22,288 nt of DNA from positions 58,122 to 80,409 of the forward strand of contig PDIM01000055.1 of the NCBI GenBank assembly GCA_002811675.1. Reading direction: 5' to 3'. The number at the start of each line of letters is the position of its first letter. Positions within the stretch are counted from its first letter, which is position 1. Origin of the DNA: Ichthyosporea sp. XGB-2017a (Eukaryota; Opisthokonta; Ichthyosporea). Positions 1,728-10,471 of the stretch are shown here, piece after piece. The notes under the pieces were generated by a model that made no database searches, was not told the DNA's origin, and worked only from the letters and a program-made list of their open reading frames with translations. The position numbers and the translations under genes are program-made.

Positions 1728-3803
1728 TTAGTACTTGCTCCATGAAACTACAGGGGCGCGAGAAGTGTCCACACCTAAATCTAAAGAAGACAGACAATTT
1801 TGAAAGCTTATTAAAGCGTCTTCTGCTGCTTTGGTTGACGTAAACTCGACAAACGCATATCCTCGATTTCGCCATCTGGACTTGCTACTTCTTGGTACAG
1901 CAAAGGTCGCCGCTCCTGTGCTCACATTGAGAAGATTTGAAATGTGGAGTTCTTGAAAGTGATATGGGATGTTTGAGACAAAAAGCGTTCTTTTTGGTTC
2001 GGTAGACAGGCATTTGCTCTTCCTTACAGAGAGTTTTAGACGGTCGAGCATACAATCAAAGTCGGGAAAGGTAATGTGCCTAATAGAGTCACTGTACTTG
2101 TCAGTAACGCCAGTCACCTTATTATTCCAAATCGACAAGTGATCTTTTGTGGAGCAGAGGCGGTACAAACTTATACACAATTTTGCTAAGCTTTTCAGAC
2201 TGTAACCGGTAAAGGATTCCAAGTCGGCATGCCAAGGGGTATCAAATTTCAGAACAAGACGAGCAAGCAAAATGCAAGCAGCCGCGACTAGAGACGAGGG
2301 TTGTTGGCCATATATACTGGCCATTAGTGTACACTCGCAAGCATAAGTGGCAACTGTTTGTAACGTTTTGTTTTGGCATTCCGTGGTGTTGAAATAGAGC
2401 AACAAAAAGTCATATGCGGTTGGCTGAATAAGTTTACCAGACAGTACCCCCAGTATTTCGCCAAACATGCGAACTACTGCAGCTGTTGAGTACATATCCT
2501 CGCACATCCATACTGATTCGTGAATGGTCAACATTTGTTCTTCGTTGATACGGGAAGCACAAAGCATTGATGTTATTCCCACTAGTTGAAAGTTGTCTCT
2601 GTCTACATTATTCCTATATAGGTATTCGTCCACATAATGGGCCGCGTAAAACACTGTACGGGGGCTGTAATTCCATTCCCTTGATATGACCACGAGCCAA
2701 TCCATGAGAATAGCTCTCATGGGTTCGTTAATCTCAGTTTCTTTTGAATATGGCCTGGTATCAGATAAGCGGCGCCGTCGGCCGATCCCCCCTTTTGACG
2801 ATGATGCCAACTTTGCCCAGTACGTAGCTTGCGTGAGCAGACGCTTTTTCTCGTCCATATTCGTAGCTACAGAGCTAGCATCTTCTAAAAGCCGCTGGGA
2901 AAGGTTGATTTGAGCCACCATATTGCCTTTCCGTGCCGCTTCCCCGGCAAATTTTTTCCACACGGTCACATTTTCTTCAGAACGCTCTCCAATCAAAAGA
3001 TGCGAAAGGTATGATTGCGCCTCCACTGACCCCATTTCAGCGGCGAGGTTGAGCCAATGCAGCGCCTCTTTTCGCTCACCTCTTTTGAAACAGAAGCACA
3101 TTCCAATACAATAAAAAAGACCCGTTCTCAAAAGATCCATTCGGTTAACTTTAATAAGGTATCGTGCCAGTGTCAGGAAATGGTCTAAAATCTGGGGCTT
3201 CGCCGAATGTATTGAAGGCCAAGGAGGGCGAAATAGTAGCCAACAGAGAGGCGGGCAGGTGTTGTTTTGCGACAAAAACGAGAGCCAAGCAGCCGCCTTT
3301 GAGCAGTCTCGCGGGAGAGACTCCCCATACAAATATGACAGGGCCAATTTGTAACATGCCTCAACATTTCCATGCGATGCAGCCGTTTCAAAGCAGTTCA
3401 AAAGTGAAACACTTTGCTTTTCCGGCCAATAGTCGCCCAAACGCAAACCCACCAAGATTTGACGACTCTCTCCAATTTCCCGAAAAGTGCGACAGCAGCA
3501 CTTTATGCGACATAGATCTCTGTAGTTTAGAAATGTGAAAATAAAGCAAATGATTTCCTCGGGCAGAGAAAATATGGATTCCTTGTTAAAAGCGCATTTC
3601 TCCACCTCCTGGACGCAGTTTGACTCCTCCCTCAAACACACTGTGCCCCCAGCACCACCCTCGAGGAGCCGCCCAGTGTGCGTTTCCATCGTGTGCTGTT
3701 GCCCAAAGTTCTCGCACAAGCTGAATCTGCCTTGGAACCTCTCAATGGGCAATGAGGGACAGGAGATGTGGCAGTGGCGGAGTTTTCTTGTAACACATTC
3801 CAT
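1728..3803 (-). CDS. CCNF: F-box / Sel1-repeat / cyclin-box / RRM protein (cyclin F-like)
   Basis: A single 691-residue frame without introns. Domains in order: an F-box at about 78-112 (LPEEIICFIFTFLNYRDL); Sel1-like helical repeats at about 135-175 and 225-300 (EALHWLNLAAEMGSVEAQ); a cyclin N-terminal box at about 355-460 with the signature MRAILMDWL at 362-370; a cyclin C-terminal fold at about 462-575; and an RRM at 604 to about 680 with RNP2 LFVSNI (607-612) and RNP1 RGYAFVEF (647-654). F-box plus cyclin box is the layout of animal cyclin F, the substrate receptor of an SCF ubiquitin ligase that uses the cyclin box to bind substrates. The RRM is not part of that family as I know it and suggests RNA-linked targeting (inference). 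ATG 3803 is the first start; ATG at residue 39 is an alternative. The gene is divergent from RABGGTA with 259 nt between starts. The symbol marks family resemblance, not proven orthology. Confidence 0.85.
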   Translation of the reverse strand: MECVTRKLRHCHISCPSLPIERFQGRFSLCENFGQQHTMETHTGRLLEGGAGGTVCLREESNCVQEVEKCAFNKESIFSLPEEIICFIFTFLNYRDLCRIKCCCRTFREIGESRQILVGLRLGDYWPEKQSVSLLNCFETAASHGNVEACYKLALSYLYGESLPRDCSKAAAWLSFLSQNNTCPPLCWLLFRPPWPSIHSAKPQILDHFLTLARYLIKVNRMDLLRTGLFYCIGMCFCFKRGERKEALHWLNLAAEMGSVEAQSYLSHLLIGERSEENVTVWKKFAGEAARKGNMVAQINLSQRLLEDASSVATNMDEKKRLLTQATYWAKLASSSKGGIGRRRRLSDTRPYSKETEINEPMRAILMDWLVVISREWNYSPRTVFYAAHYVDEYLYRNNVDRDNFQLVGITSMLCASRINEEQMLTIHESVWMCEDMYSTAAVVRMFGEILGVLSGKLIQPTAYDFLLLYFNTTECQNKTLQTVATYACECTLMASIYGQQPSSLVAAACILLARLVLKFDTPWHADLESFTGYSLKSLAKLCISLYRLCSTKDHLSIWNNKVTGVTDKYSDSIRHITFPDFDCMLDRLKLSVRKSKCLSTEPKRTLFVSNIPYHFQELHISNLLNVSTGAATFAVPRSSKSRWRNRGYAFVEFTSTKAAEDALISFQNCLSSLDLGVDTSRAPVVSWSKY

Positions 3804-4062
3804 AACTGCTTCCTTTTTTTTTGGTTAAGACAGGATTGTTTGATTTGCTTAACAACATTAAAATCAAAAAAAAAAAGAAAAAAAAATATTAAAAAACGAA
3901 AAACGAAAAAGAATTTTTTTTTCGTGTAAAAAAATTTTAAGCGGAAAAGTGCGGACATCAAAAAAATGGCGGATCAGCTGTTCTTTTCCCTTTTTTCTGT
4001 TGGTTTTGGAAATCTATCGGATTGTGAAGTAACAAAGAGGAAACAGGAGGAAGGGAAGAAGG
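3804..4062. promoter_or_regulatory. Divergent promoter, cyclin F-like / RABGGTA
   Basis: This 259-nt gap separates two start codons facing apart. From the cyclin side it has an A-rich tract on the + strand (about 3864-3915, T-rich when read in the cyclin direction). A T-rich tract (about 3980-4015) follows toward RABGGTA. Between them lies GATCAGCTGTT at 3972-3982, containing the E-box-like CAGCTG. The same 11-mer occurs in the other housekeeping divergent promoter at 7046-7056. No convincing TATA box at a fixed distance is seen. Confidence 0.5.
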
Positions 4063-5897
4063 ATGCATGGTCGAGCAAAAGTGAAGTCCTCTGCTGAGGA
4101 GGCTGAAGCCAAGAGGAAAGAGCAGTTTAAGAAATTAGCAAAATATCAACACCTCGTGGATGCCGTGCAGAAAATGGTAAAGAAAAACACATGCAACTCG
4201 TCTGAGGGGAAAGCATTCAAATGATGAAGAAAGTGTTGAGATTAACTTGAAGAGATTATTATATATTCTGTTTTTTGGTTTTGTTTGTTTTTGATTGTAG
4301 AAAGAAAATGGCCTTTTTAATAAGGAAGCCTTGATTTTAACAGAAAAGTTATTGTCCGTTAATGCGGATTTCTATTCGTGTTGGAACTATCGGCATGATA
4401 TTTTGAATAGATTAATGAAAGATGCAGAGGAAGAGGAGGAAGGAAAAGGGCAAAAGATGATGGACGAAGAGTATCGCTTCTCGGAAAGTGTGATTAGAAA
4501 TAATCCCAAGTCGTATTTTTGTTGGAATCATCGTCGCTGGCTTGTGCTCAAAAATGCCAGTTCTGAAGGGGTGTGGAAACGCGAGTTGGGATTATGTGAT
4601 GCCTTTTTGGATTTGGATAGTAGAAACTGTAAGTCTATCACTGCTTTTTTTTTTCTTGTTTTCCTTAAATGACCAAAGTAAATTGACTTTTTAACATACA
4701 CTCTCTCTATACATACTTATGTTAGTCCACTGTTGGGATTATCGGAGATGGGTTATTGGACACTATTCGGAAAGGCAGCCAAAGGATGAATTTAACTATA
4801 CCACTTTGAAAATCAATCAAAACTTTTCCAATTATTCGGCATGGCATTATCGCAGTGGGCTTTTGCCTCGGGTGGAAGGGGAAAGCATCGATAGCGAGCT
4901 TGATATGGTACAATCTGCCTGCTTTACCGAACCTGATGACCAGTCTGCGTGGCTGTACCAACAGTGGCTTCTGAGTAAAGTGGGTGGAGAGGGATTTCTT
5001 TCCCAGTGTGTGGTGGGCAGAGAGTGTGGGGAGGTGGTGTGTGTGTATTCGCAGCCTGCGGGGAAGCCTTCTCCAGGGATGGTTCGTGTGTATGCGGATG
5101 AGGAGGAGGCGGAGGGTGGTGGGAGCGAGGAAGGCTGTTGGCGCACTCCTCACGATGAGGTTAAAGCGCGCAATGGGGCGCGTAGTGTCTGTTGGATATT
5201 TAAATCGGCCCTTGGTCGCGCTGCCAAAGTCAAAATAGAGGGCAAAATATTCCGCGACGTTGCCACATTTAGTGCCAGTGTAGATGATATTGGGGAGGAT
5301 ACAAAAGCGCTGCTGGCGGAGCTGCTGGATTCTTGTGAGCAACTTGTTGATTTAGAGCCAGATTCCCGATGGGCTTTGTTCAATTCGGTATTGCTGATGG
5401 GGTTGGATAAGGGCCGGAAATGGGATCGGGCGGAGATGGTGGACTCGTTGATAGAGGTGGACCCCAAGCGACGAGGGTTTTATAGGGATTTGAAGAGTAA
5501 ACTGGTGATTGACGGCATGGTATTTGAGGGAAAGACCAGCGTGTCTCTTGCAGAAAAGTGCTTGACGACCATGCACTATGGCGAGCGAATGGTTGCTTGC
5601 CGGTCGTTGGACTTGAGTGGCAATCTGCTAGGCGGCCTTTCAGGACGAAACTTTAACTGTTTTTTGCTTTTTTTGGAAACACTCGTGCTTGACGACAATG
5701 CAGTTGAGTGTTTGAGTGATCTTTGCCTTGGTCGTTTGCGATCATTGAGGGTGCTGAGTGTGCGGAATAACCAGATTAGATCTTGTGTGTCTTGTGTGAA
5801 CCAGACTCTTGAGGACATTAACCTTTCAGGGAACCCATTAACCAATTATCGCGATGCCCTATTGGAAATATTTCCAAATTTAAAGTCAATAAAGTAA
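4063..5897 (+). CDS. RABGGTA: Rab geranylgeranyltransferase alpha subunit (3 exons)
   Basis: Exons are 4063-4176, 4301-4628 and 4726-5897, giving 537 residues (human about 567). The introns are 124 and 97 nt, with donors GTAAAG and GTAAGT and acceptors TTGTAG and GTTAG. The protein forms a heterodimer with the beta subunit that geranylgeranylates Rab GTPases in the cytosol. It starts MHGRAKVK; the His at position 2 matches the residue that reaches the active-site zinc in the mammalian enzyme. Prenyltransferase alpha repeats follow: CWNYRHDIL, CFWNHRRW-type and, across the second splice, NFHCWDYRRW, then NYSAWHYRSGLLP. Residues about 245-330 match the position of the Ig-like insertion of animal enzymes (GCWRTP motif). 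Residues 439-537 are leucine-rich repeats (LDLSGN, LVLDDNAVECLSD, LSVRNNQIRS, INLSGNPL). Splicing is fixed by frame: the split codon restores Phe148 in NFHCWDYRR. The tail is convergent with PEX19. Confidence 0.95.
5889..5894 (+). promoter_or_regulatory. Poly(A) signal of RABGGTA, inside the coding region
   Basis: AATAAA lies directly before the TAA stop (5895-5897), so the last sense codons encode the cleavage signal. No other AATAAA is seen before the convergent PEX19 stop. Confidence 0.55.
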
Positions 5898-5921
5898 AGA
5901 AAGCTTTTATACTTTGCTGGT

Positions 5922-5927
5922 TTTATT
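5922..5927 (-). promoter_or_regulatory. Poly(A) signal of PEX19
   Basis: AATAAA on the minus strand (TTTATT on +), 11 nt past the PEX19 stop and inside the 40-nt gap between the two convergent stop codons. Confidence 0.6.
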
Positions 5928-5937
5928 GGGTGTCCAT

Positions 5938-6946
5938 TTACATTATCAGACATTCTCCGTCTCCTTGCTGACTGCCTTGTAGCGTGGTCAAATTATTAAA
6001 AGGAAATCCCGGCATTGGCTCCCCATTCTCGGCCGTCGTTTCTGCGCTCAACTGGGCAGCAAGTTCTTCTGGTGGCTGCCCGCACTCTTGAAGTTTGCTG
6101 ACCAAATCCAGCACTTTTGTAAACTGTTCCTCGTTCATATTTGCGTTTTGATCATATTCTGCGATGATTAAATTACAGTATTCCAGCTGCTTTTCATACC
6201 GTTGACGATCTTCGGGGCTAATTGATTTGTTTTCGTTCAGAAACGGGGGATATGATTTTGACATATTTACTAGTGGATCATAAATGAGATCCTTGTTGAG
6301 CAAGGATTGCATAAGTCCCTCTAACATTGGCATAAAATCCGCCCCTTCCGTCAGCCCCTCTAGTTCCTTTACCATGTTTTCCATATATACCTCGTCCGCT
6401 AGCATGGGGTTACTTTCCGATTCATGTAAACCCGGCAAATGAGGATCCTAATACACAAAGATACAAAACAATCAATGAATAAAACGCAAAAATACATTTT
6501 CCTTTTTTTTCTCTTTCCTTTTTTACCTTTATCGCTTCTGCATTTTTCTTCATTTCGTTCAGGGTGTCGTCCACTGTTTTTGGTTGCGTGTTTGATGATG
6601 ATGGAGATGCTTGTGGCTGAATGGATGAGGAAGCAGAGGCATCCACGGAGAGCTTTTGCATGGCTTCCAGCATGGCTGTTGAATCTTCACCCATGAGCTG
6701 ACCCATCAACTCTGCTGTCTTTTCGGGATTCTTTTCCAGCTCCTTTGACAGATTTTCTAACTCTGAAGCAAATCGAGCGGCAATGGGGTCATCTTTGAAA
6801 AACTGTTCCTCGAGTCTCTGGTCGTCATAGTCATCTTTCAAACTATCGTCCAGATTAGGGGCCACGGGCGGTTTATTCTGATTAAAATCCCCCAAGGTAT
6901 CGTCCAATAGTTCACTCAACTCTTGATCATTTACCTTGTCACCCAT
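5938..6946 (-). CDS. PEX19: Peroxin 19, farnesylated peroxisomal membrane protein receptor (2 exons)
   Basis: Exons are 6946-6527 and 6447-5938, joined in phase 0 across a 79-nt intron (donor GTAAAA, acceptor ATTAG). The product is 309 residues (human 299). PEX19 is the cytosolic chaperone and import receptor that binds peroxisomal membrane proteins and docks on PEX3. The acidic N-terminus carries ELSELLDDTLGDF, the amphipathic PEX3-binding helix. The middle has FKDDPIAARF and a Met/Leu-rich stretch. The C-terminal half contains the cargo-binding helices (MVKELEGLTEGADFMPML, then LLNKDLIYDPL, YPPFL and YEKQLEYCNLI). The protein ends in CLIM, a CaaX box for farnesylation, as in animal PEX19. 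The spliced segment continues as DPHLPG. The intron's reading-through frame stops soon, supporting the splice. Its start is divergent from the CBM20 gene (314 nt). Confidence 0.95.
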
Positions 6947-7260
6947 ATTTCCAGTCTGTCTCTAAAAGATTTACCAACAAAAAAACAAATAGAAACCAAC
7001 AACAACAATGAAAATAAAAAAATTGAAAGTCTCGAAAAGGGAATTGATCAGCTGTTTCTTTAATCTTTTTTTTGTGGCTTAATTTTTCTATTTTTTGTTT
7101 TTTGTTTTTGTTCGCGGGATCTTTTTAATTTTTGTTTTGGTGAGAAAAAAAAAAATAGTTATTATCAAATAAATGGAAAGGTTTGTCTTTTGTTTTGTTT
7201 AGTTTTGTTTAGTTTTGATTTGAGTTGGTTTGTGTTGCGGAGATTTTTGTTTTGAACAAA
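6947..7260. promoter_or_regulatory. Divergent promoter, PEX19 / CBM20 tether gene
   Basis: This 314-nt gap has an A-rich tract on + near the PEX19 start (about 6970-7024), a long T-rich tract toward the + gene (about 7055-7140), and GATCAGCTGTT at 7046-7056 between them. This is the same 11-mer, in the same orientation and relative position, as in the promoter at 3972-3982. GTGAGA at about 7140 followed by an A-run and TAG could be a 5'UTR splice signal, but I cannot support an intron. Confidence 0.5.
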
Positions 7261-10200
7261 ATGAATGAGAATCATAGTGTTTGGTTTTATGCTGGAGCCG
7301 TGGCTGCCACTGTGTGTGTGGCGGCTGGAAGTGCAGCCTATTTTTTCCATGCAATGAGGAAAACCCCTGCACGTAAGCCCAACAGTGCTCCCGTGACAAA
7401 GGTATGTGTGGTTGTGTCTTTTGAGTGATGTGCGATGGCGTTCTGTAATTCTTTTACTAAGAAAAAACTGTTGTTGTGTGATGTACGTAGGTTGAGAATG
7501 TGTCTTCAAAACATGCCATGAATGGTTCGGATACTGAGGTAAATGTTACCAGTGCAAAAAAGAGAAGAAAGAACAAGGAGAAAGGTGACGGTCTGTCAAA
7601 AATTGAGCGCGAAGAGTCTCGTTTGAAGGCAGAAGCGTTGGCAAAGGCAGCGCATTTGGAAGAACTGGCCAAGAGACGCGAAAAGGAATTGGAAAAGGAG
7701 CGTGAGACAAAAAGGTATGTGGTTTTTTGTTTGGCTATTGTTTTGAGGTAACGAGTGCTAACCTGTTTATAAAATGTAGAGTTGCCCTGGAAAAGGAGCA
7801 AGCTGCGAAGGAAGCGCTAAAAGCGAAGGCTTTGGAAGAGGAAATGCTGAATACTGAAAGGAAGAGAATTGCCAAGGAAAAGGCAAAGGTTGAAGAGGAT
7901 GAAGCAAGAGCGCAGCGAGAGGCGCGCAAAAAAGCCAATGAAGAAAGGATGGAGCAAGAAAGATTGGCCAAAATTGAACGTTTGAAACGCGAAGAAGCTC
8001 GTGCAGAGCAATTGCGCAAGGAGGCCGAGGAGTTGAAAAAGCGGGAAGAAGAGGAGCGATTGAAGCGGGAGGAGGAGCTGCGCTTGAAGCTTGAAGAAGA
8101 GGAGCGTTTGAAACGTGAAGAAGAGGCTCGTGTTGAACAGTTGCGCAAGGAACTCGAAGAGTTGAGGAAGCGGGAGGAGGAGGAGCAATTGAAGCGCGAG
8201 GAGGAGCTGCGTTTGAAGCTTGAAGAAGAGGAGCGTTTGAAACATGAAGAAGAGGCTCGTGTTGAACAGTTGCGCAAGGAAGCCGAAGAGTTGAAGAAGC
8301 GGGAAGAGGAGGAGCAATTGAGGTGCGAGGAGGAGCTGCGTTTGAAGCTTGAAGAAGAGGAGCGTTTGAAACGTGAAGAAGAGGCTCGTGTTGAACAGTT
8401 GCGCAAGGAAGCCGAAGAGTTGAAGAAGCGGGAAGAGGAGGAGCAGTTGAGGTGCGAGGAGGAGCTGCGTTTGAAGCTTGAAGAAGAAGAGCGTGTGAAA
8501 CGTGAAGAAGAGGCTCGTGCTGAGAAATTGCGCAAAGAAGCTGAAGACTTGAAGAGACAGGAAGAAGAGGAGCAACTAAAGCGCGAGGAGGAGCTGCGTT
8601 TGAAGCTCGCAGAAGAAGAGCGTTTGAAACGCGAGGAAGATGCTCGCGCTGAGCAGTTGCGCAAAGAGGCTGAAGATTTGAAGAGGCGGGAAGAAGAGGA
8701 GCGATTGAAGCGAGAGGAGGAGCTGCGTTTGAAGTTTGAAGAAGAAGAGCGGTTGAAACGCAAAGAAGAGGAGCTGCGAAAGGAAAAGGAGGAGCAATTG
8801 AAGCAGCGAGAGGAGCTCCTTGAAAAGGAGGCCGAACTGAAGCGACAAGAGGCTTTGAAAGCAGAAGAGGAGCACCGCCGCAAGGAGGAGGAAGCGCGTA
8901 TCTTGTTGGAGGAGGAAATGGCCAAAAAGCAAGCCGAAGAAGATCGTCTTGCACAGGAGGCCGAACTGAAGCGACAAGAGGCTTTGAAAGCAGAAGAGGA
9001 GCACCGCCGCAAGGAGGAGGAAGCGCGTATCTTGTTGGAAGAGGAAATGGCCAAAAAGCAAGCCGAAGAAGAGCGTCTTGCAAAGGAGGCCGAACTGAAG
9101 CGACAAGAGGCTTTGAAAGCAGAAGAGGAGCACCGCCGCAAGGAGGAAGAAGCGCGTATCTTGTTGGAAGAGGAAATGGCCAAAAAGCAAGCCGAAGAAG
9201 AGCGTCTTGCAAAGGAGGCAGAACTGAAGCGACAGGAGGCTTTGAAAGCAGAAGAAGAGCACCGCCGCAAGGAGGAGGAAGCGCGTATCTTGTTGGAAGA
9301 GGAAATGGCCAAAAAGCAAGCCGAAGAAGAGCGTCTTGCAAAGGAGGCAGAACTGAAGCGACAGGAGGCTTTGAAAGCAGAAGAAGAGCACCGCCGCAAG
9401 GAGGAGGAAGCGCGTATCTTGTTGGAAGAGGAAATGGCCAAAAAGCAAGCCGAAGAAGAGCGTCTTGCAAAGGAGGCAGAACTGAAGCGACAGGAGGCTT
9501 TGAAAGCAGAAGAAGAGCACCGTCGCAAGGAGGAAGAAGCGCGTATCTTGTTAGAAGAGGAAATGAATGAAACGCAAGCTGAAAAAGAGATGAATGAAAG
9601 GACTGGCGAGGAGAAAAAGGAAGTCAATAAGAAAGAGCAAGCAAATCTCGTCCCACTAGAAGTGCAGTTGGTTGAAGCCGAACGCAAGGCCGAGGGGGCA
9701 GCAGACACTGAAACTCAAAGTGAGGATTTGTTGTCGCCTCATTTTGTAAATTACAATCCTGCGTCAACTGATAATTTTGCTCGAGAATACGAAGCAGCGG
9801 TAAAAGAGGAGGAAGAAAAGGTGAATGTAGAAAAGAAAGAAACAAATGAGGAAAAAAAGGAAATGGAAAAGGAACCAGAAAAGGAAGCCGTCGAGGAGGA
9901 AAAGAAATTTGAACATCTTTTAAGTACACCGGAAAAGCAACTGAGCAAGGAACATAAGAAACTGCTTTTATCGGAACGCAAAAAGATGGAAAAGGCTGCA
10001 AAAGAGGCGGAAAAGGAAGCCAAAAAGAAGGAAAAGTTTTTGAAAGATGCATGCAAAGCAATCGCAAAAGATTACGCGCATGGCGTTAAACCATTGGAGG
10101 AGGGTGGTGCAGACACCTTTTTGGAAACACCTAATACGAAGTCCACGGCCGAGGGATGTGTGCTTGTGCAATTTACCGTCTCTTCGAAGACAGTCCCCGG

Positions 10201-10471
10201 TGAAAACATTTTCGTATCAGGGTCAGCCCCCGAACTGGGTGGGTGGAACATTGAGAAAGCTGTACCACTAGTGACCTCTGAAAAGGAATATCCAAATTGG
10301 TCAGTCACCCTTGATATCCCCGCCAAACAGGACGTCGAATTTAAGTACTTTAAAAAGTCTGAAGCTGGTTCGACACATTGGGAATTCTCCTGGCACAATC
10401 GTAAACTCCACAGTGCCACTCTGTGTAGAGACCTGGTTGTCCAAAATTCCTTTGGAAATAGTAAACATTGA
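7261..10471 (+). CDS. Membrane-anchored giant charged-helix protein with C-terminal CBM20 (STBD1-like, 3 exons)
   Basis: Exons are 7261-7401, 7491-7714 and 7780-10471, giving 1018 residues. The introns are 89 and 65 nt; the second has a GTGCTAAC branch-point-like sequence. ATG 7261 starts MNENHSVWFY; residues about 8-29 are one hydrophobic segment followed by RKTPARK, predicting a signal anchor with the bulk in the cytosol. Residues about 85-720 are almost pure Glu/Lys/Arg/Leu helix, containing two arrays of 43-residue repeats. Residues 913-1018 are a CBM20 starch-binding domain: SGSAPELGGWN, NWSVTLDIPA, EFKYFKK and HWEFSWHNR. Trp944 and Trp989 align with the two glucan-stacking Trp of CBM20 site 1. 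Vertebrate STBD1 has the same order (N-terminal anchor, C-terminal CBM20) and ties glycogen to membranes, but is far shorter. I infer a glycogen or starch tether; a purely structural role is possible. AATAAA lies at 10509. Confidence 0.85.
8003..8776 (+). repeat. Coding tandem array 1: six 129-bp units (43 residues)
   Basis: Units start at 8003, 8132, 8261, 8390, 8519 and 8648, an exact 129-bp period. Each encodes a variant of AEQLRKEAEELKKREEEE continuing to LKREEEAR (protein residues 197-454). The copies are diverged by scattered substitutions. The last unit degenerates into the 54-nt linker before array 2. Confidence 0.95.
8831..9565 (+). repeat. Coding tandem array 2: 5.7 copies of a different 129-bp unit
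   Basis: Units start at 8831, 8960, 9089, 9218, 9347 and 9476, again exactly 129 bp. Each encodes AELKRQEALKAEEEHRRKEE followed by EARILLEEEMAKKQAEEERL and AKE (residues 473-717). The copies differ by only a few bases, so this array is younger or more strongly homogenised than array 1. The sixth copy breaks off at LLEEEMNETQ. Confidence 0.95.

Follow-up and report, generated by a model that had tools for sequence, protein, structure and literature searches.

What kind of protein joins a hydrophobic N-terminus to a glucan-binding domain through about 650 charged residues, and what could it do in a cell that makes glycogen? In this work, we analyzed a 22,288-nt stretch of the genome of Ichthyosporea sp. 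XGB-2017a (contig PDIM01000055.1, positions 58,122 to 80,409; hereafter, the window), which contains a predicted gene of this build on the forward strand (7261-10471), referred to below as the tether gene. We found that its product may be a cytosol-facing, membrane-anchored glycogen scaffold with a domain order similar to that of STBD1, a reading to which we give a probability of about one half. In the proposed arrangement, the N-terminal segment would insert as a signal anchor in the endoplasmic reticulum or the mitochondrial outer membrane, the charged helix of ~650 residues would provide a semi-stiff spacer, and the CBM20 at the C-terminus would bind the alpha-glucan chains of glycogen, itself a product of the cytosolic glycogen synthase. 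Glycogen would thereby be gathered or held in a zone some 50-90 nm off the membrane.

The three-exon structure proposed in the first-pass annotation was borne out by computation. The spliced translation of 7261-10471 gives 1018 aa with no internal stop, and both the splice signals and the coding scores support the model. Exon 1 (7261-7401; residues 1-47) begins with an ATG, ends at a GTATGT donor, and has its top coding score in the used frame (+22.3 bits, compared with +4.6 and +6.7 bits in the other forward frames, each with three stops, and +8.9, +7.6, and +1.8 bits in the reverse frames, two of the three being stop-free). Exon 2 (7491-7714) reaches +39.3 bits in its reading frame, compared with +2.1 and +11.9 bits in the other forward frames, which have three and five stops, respectively. 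Exon 3, including the stop codon (7780-10471), lies within a 921-aa open frame (7706-10471). The lengths of intron 1 (7402-7490; 89 nt; GTATGT..TACTAA..TAG) and intron 2 (7715-7779; 65 nt; GTATGT..GCTAAC..TAG) are not multiples of three, so either would shift the frame if left unspliced. The codon statistics were trained on 8060 codons from 16 open stretches of the same genome. In the 5' flank, the forward frames score -16 to -21 bits and the reverse frames -19 to -26 bits, a contrast that is partly circular because the flank and the introns were in the non-coding background. An in-frame stop lies upstream of the ATG at 7216. In the same genome, a second gene that encodes a CBM20, here called fimbrin-CBM20 (our locus L009, about 4100-6498, on contig C163), was spliced by hand with GTACGT and GTATGT donors and CTAAC sites; its 753-aa product is identical over the whole length to EukProt Nk52_evm46s217, which indicates that such splice signals are used in this genome. 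This identity also points to the organism labelled Nk52 in EukProt, probably Chromosphaera perkinsii. The latter has been described as a putatively free-living ichthyosporean (PMC5560861, excerpt). A search of the 25.06-Mb assembly (291 contigs) found no second copy of exons 1 and 2, the two matches being the tether gene itself. The GC content of the window is 39-52% in 1-kb bins.

The middle of the protein agrees with the charged helix of about 630 residues that had been proposed from the sequence. Residues 82-730 (7593-9604, spanning intron 2) form a stretch of 649 aa without Pro or Gly, which together account for 8.7% of the rest of the tether protein. The charged fraction of this stretch is 0.64, and its composition is dominated by Glu (35%), Lys and Arg (28% together), Leu (13%), and Ala (11%). 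Most of it is built from two tandem arrays of a 129-bp (43-aa) unit identified by Tandem Repeats Finder, namely, array A (7979-8771; 6.2 copies, 89% matches) and array B (8819-9565; 5.8 copies, 97% matches). The units vary chiefly at synonymous sites: the ratio of non-synonymous to synonymous differences (pN/pS) between units is 0.23 in array A (15 pairs, six units) and 0.075 in array B (10 pairs, five units), both calculated without the last row of each array, which is divergent from the repeat unit. These low values indicate that the protein sequence of the repeats seems to be maintained; copying between units complicates this reading. The near-identity of the units in array B further suggests that the reach of the spacer could be adjusted through the gain or loss of 43-residue units, at about 6.5 nm each.

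The pattern of charges favors a single alpha-helix, most clearly in array B. Across the whole stretch, opposite-charge pairs spaced i to i+4 exceed those in shuffled sequences with z=13.2, a value inflated by the repetition; a single 43-residue unit of array A or B gives z=3.8 each. For comparison, the 961-residue coil in a protein here called coil-CBM20 (L008), also encoded in this genome, has a charged fraction of 0.41 and an i to i+4 score of z=4.3. This control coil has a hydrophobic stripe with a power of ~23 near 3.58 residues, compared with ~8 in array A (at 3.57-3.58) and 0.2 or less at 3.5-3.67 residues in array B, which has no hydrophobic stripe. Array B thus looks like a single alpha-helix, and array A could go either way. 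When exon 3 alone was modeled by AlphaFold2 from the single sequence, the result was one unbroken 606-residue helix (model residues 2-607; full-length residues 124-729) with block means of ~59-78 for the predicted local distance difference test (pLDDT) and a predicted template modeling score (pTM) of 0.26; the CBM20 was left unfolded in this model, and the long helix is only suggestive.

At 0.15 nm per residue, the contour length of the charged stretch is 97 nm. With a persistence length of 150 nm, as for coiled coils, the computed root-mean-square (rms) end-to-end reach would be ~88 nm. For a single alpha-helix, the persistence length is ~15 nm (PMC5347031, excerpt), and the rms reach becomes ~50 nm. 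The distance of roughly 90 nm between granule and membrane stated in the first-pass annotation therefore holds as a contour length, and the mean reach at single-helix stiffness would be about 50 nm.

At the C-terminus, a profile hidden Markov model search recovered the CBM20 that had been placed at residues 913-1018. The match to Pfam PF00686 covers residues 916-1004 (10160-10426) with 88.7 bits against a cut-off of 23.3 (E=2.3e-25), which assigns the domain to the family, and it ranks at the top of the CBM20 matches in the genome. Both of the site-1 Trp residues that had been noted are present: Trp944 (10244-10246) and Trp989 (10379-10381) align with Trp616 and Trp662 of the Bacillus circulans CGTase, Lys977 (10343-10345) aligns with Lys651, and Tyr959 aligns with Tyr633. 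We take Trp616, Lys651, and Trp662 to be the site 1 residues of CGTase, and presume the roles of these residues and of Tyr633 at sites 1 and 2. An AlphaFold2 model of the last 149 residues based on four sequences has block means of 61-88 over its residues 41-130; of these nine blocks, five lie at 81-88, and the mean over the whole model is 64.6 (pTM 0.60). A Foldseek search returned 51 matches at E up to 0.001. Among the 50 listed are chains of CGTase, glucoamylase, beta-amylase, GPCPD1, and STBD1, the last with the CBM20-maltotetraose structure 8x8k at 31-32% identity. From the fold and the conserved site residues, we infer that the tether CBM20 binds glucan.

The closest solved relatives by sequence are the CBM20s of CGTase and glucoamylase. 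The 53 sequence matches at E up to 0.01 include no chain of STBD1, so a specific kinship with STBD1 is not supported. The earlier comparison with STBD1 is fair as far as domain order goes. NCBIfam gave no match for the tether tail.

The genome provides a context for glycogen binding. The assembly contains five CBM20 matches: the tether, one adjoining a GDPD frame in an arrangement as in GPCPD1, one in the fimbrin-like gene, one in the coiled-coil gene, and a weak fifth (24 bits in the genome search; 22.5 against the cut-off of 23.3 in the frame scan). Besides the tether, three matches have E below 1e-10; they fall within or next to the GDPD, fimbrin-like, and coiled-coil genes, all of types that we expect to be cytosolic. 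In fimbrin-CBM20, calponin homology (CH) domains (match to fimbrin 1pxy, E=2e-36) are followed by a charged region and the CBM20, in which Tyr occupies one of the site-1 Trp positions. Of 7992 database candidates scored, four matched this protein, and of these four only its own record carries both CH and CBM20 domains. It is possible that this protein serves as an actin-glycogen linker. The coil-CBM20 frame (L008 2466-6374, - strand, contig C9) encodes 1303 aa, mostly coiled coil, with the CBM20 near the C-terminal end. In NCBIfam, the fimbrin-CBM20 frame had no match, and the coil-CBM20 frame matched SMC families weakly.

For glycogen metabolism, genes were found for a glycogen synthase of family GT3, a branching-type enzyme with CBM48, amylase, and C-terminal domains, a debranching enzyme, and two GH31 proteins (three matches), one of which reads as acid-glucosidase-like. 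In addition, L007 (contig C176) contains a frame for a GT5 starch-synthase-type glycosyltransferase, possibly an alpha-glucan synthase. No glycogen phosphorylase was found in the assembly with PF00343, which matched 12 of the 14 control genomes, or with the exact DNA pattern of the pyridoxal phosphate site. However, chaperonin matches came up at no more than three places in a completeness check, against about nine expected chaperonin genes. Either the assembly or the search misses genes, and the absence of the phosphorylase is not evidence of loss. The idea that phosphorylase loss could explain a lysosomal turnover of glycogen was dropped on this ground. Creolimax, another ichthyosporean, has a glycogen phosphorylase (PMC7147346, Table 1, from an excerpt).

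The N-terminal anchor is plausible and is the weakest element of the membrane-tether reading. The hydrophobic segment noted in the first-pass annotation is present at residues 8-30 (7282-7350), where 23 residues at the extreme N-terminus contain no Lys, Arg, Asp, or Glu. The flanking charges are -1 before and +4 after (residues 31-45), which predicts that the C-terminal side, and with it the spacer and the CBM20, would face the cytosol. The best 19-residue Kyte-Doolittle mean in the protein is 1.66 in this segment, and the next best past residue 40 is 0.82, within the CBM20.

Several results weigh against a membrane-anchored, single-helix tether. The fimbrin-CBM20 protein peaks at 1.61 inside its CH region, which is presumably soluble. 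Hydrophobicity, which we had considered as proof of the anchor, was accordingly ruled out in that role. The coil-CBM20 protein has its best window at 1.26, not far under the value of the tether. On the Hessa scale, the best four unweighted sums range from +2.7 to +3.1 and are thus unfavorable to insertion. The exon 1 junction, on which the anchor depends, is predicted from splice signals and coding score. In the spacer, the first 101 residues of the charged stretch (residues 82-182) have no salt-bridge pattern (z=1.3), and together with the moderate stripe in array A this makes dimerization possible. Finally, two database searches found no homologue. With residues 860-1018 as the query, none of 658 candidates passed at E up to 0.001, and with the 161 C-terminal residues of a 320-aa piece, none of 185 did; the two length windows span about 176-1781 aa. 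The tether's own protein was also not returned, which suggests that the database may lack this gene, as would be explained if earlier assemblies broke at the repeats.

The strongest rival follows from the same results. If the segment is not inserted, or if transcription begins only after exon 1, the protein would be a soluble helical CBM20 scaffold. The narrow difference between 1.66 and the soluble-type control, the positive Hessa sums, the computed status of exon 1, and the existence in the same genome of a coil-CBM20 protein without any window above 1.26 are all in line with it. However, exon 1 scores highest in the frame that is used and has splice signals like those of the database-confirmed fimbrin-CBM20 gene, and the segment has a run of 23 residues free of Lys, Arg, Asp, and Glu followed by a flank of +4. 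We consider a soluble scaffold rather unlikely on balance.

A receptor for glycophagy of the STBD1 type would also be membrane-bound and hold glycogen through its CBM20, and it would recruit Atg8 for delivery to lysosomes. The order of candidate anchor, candidate motif, and CBM20 matches that in STBD1 (PMC5358331, excerpt), and the sole occurrence of [WFY]xx[LIV] in the sequence, FEHL at residues 832-835 (9908-9919), is preceded by acidic residues and could be an Atg8-interacting motif. The two GH31 genes, with the acid-glucosidase-like one among them, would fit such a route. Nevertheless, chance alone would give 1.1 such matches in the linker, which puts FEHL at the chance level, and a receptor has no obvious need for so long a spacer. 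The search for ATG8 gave no match in this genome and is uninformative, given that it also matched none of the 14 control genomes. Taken together, a glycophagy receptor appears unlikely.

An active role in glycogen formation has to be weighed in the same way. The CBM20 domains of the algal proteins SAGA1 and SAGA2 bind maltoheptaose, and a local priming of starch has been proposed for them (PMC13167743, excerpt); by analogy, the tether protein could be a factor that seeds or clusters glycogen at the membrane rather than a passive tether. No feature of the protein tells seeding from tethering, and the holding of finished particles, their seeding, and their passing to autophagy are indistinguishable from sequence. 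This alternative, too, has a low probability in our estimate. A secreted or luminal protein with a cleaved signal peptide and a CBM20 active outside the cytosol is very improbable: small residues near positions 20-26, read from the sequence, provide a candidate cleavage site, but no Lys or Arg precedes the hydrophobic core, a charge of +4 follows it, and no glycoside hydrolase family was found in the CBM20 frames scanned.

With the membrane-anchored scaffold as the preferred reading, the protein can be compared with known systems. STBD1 shares the N-terminal hydrophobic segment, the cytosolic body (predicted for the tether), and the C-terminal CBM20 (STBD1 side from an excerpt of PMC5358331). 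The spacer of the tether is far longer and repeat-built, its Atg8 motif is only a chance-level candidate, and residue 2 is Asn, not the Gly2 that is N-myristoylated in mouse STBD1. SAGA1 and SAGA2 are of long coiled-coil build. They differ from the tether as plastid proteins with Rubisco-binding motifs, and to our knowledge no plastid is expected in the ichthyosporean. The likeness to these Chlamydomonas proteins lies in the use of a non-enzymatic CBM20 protein that binds glucan and places starch at a cell structure (PMC13167743, excerpt). In Arabidopsis, the membrane-bound coiled coil MFP1 decides the site where alpha-glucan starts (PMC13167743, excerpt), as the tether might; however, MFP1 and PTST2 are two separate plastid proteins, and it is the partner PTST2, not the membrane protein, that binds the glucan. 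The ER/K single alpha-helices of myosin-6 and myosin-10 share the richness in Glu, Lys, and Arg, the i to i+4 salt bridges, and the use as a spacer, which is proposed for the tether. Putative single alpha-helices are typically 40 to about 200 residues long (PMC5347031, excerpt), whereas the tether stretch has about 530-650 residues, or about 2.5- to 3-fold that upper value. Within the same genome, fimbrin-CBM20 is likewise non-enzymatic, with a charged middle and a CBM20 toward the C-terminus, and has actin-binding CH domains where the tether has its anchor.

The suggestion of an undescribed spacer system thus stands in part. The union of an anchor with a CBM20 is already known from STBD1, glucan placement through CBM20 from SAGA1 and SAGA2 (PMC13167743, excerpt), and the setting of glucan sites by a membrane-bound coil from MFP1 and PTST2. 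New is one protein that combines these with a spacer of ~650 residues, together with actin-type and coil-type CBM20 proteins in the same genome. In the open-licence PMC literature, we found no paper uniting STBD1, glycogen, CBM20, and coiled coil, and none uniting CBM20, calponin homology, and glycogen.

Tentatively, this protist may have a set of glycogen-positioning scaffolds in which the CBM20 is joined to a membrane (the tether), to actin (the fimbrin head), and to a further site (the coiled coil). As part of this reading, and with the same reserve, the membrane member might be among the longest natural single-alpha-helix spacers. If the set is real, glycogen would be actively placed in a lineage that split off before the animals did, and a relative of animals would use dedicated scaffolds to place glycogen beside membranes and actin; such a toolkit was not found described in the open-licence PMC literature. 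The origin of STBD1-type glycogen handling could then be tested in a group of organisms that is used to study how animals arose, and the tether helix would probe the length up to which a single alpha-helix can serve as a spacer.

Two neighboring genes in the window deserve mention. A PEX19-like gene in two frames (5941-6946, - strand) lies head to head with the tether gene, ~315 bp apart, and its product ends in CLIM, which resembles a prenylation motif. Farther upstream, one frame (1731-3824, - strand) has F-box, Sel1-like, cyclin N, and cyclin C matches and a weak RRM match, and reads as cyclin F-like with an added RRM.

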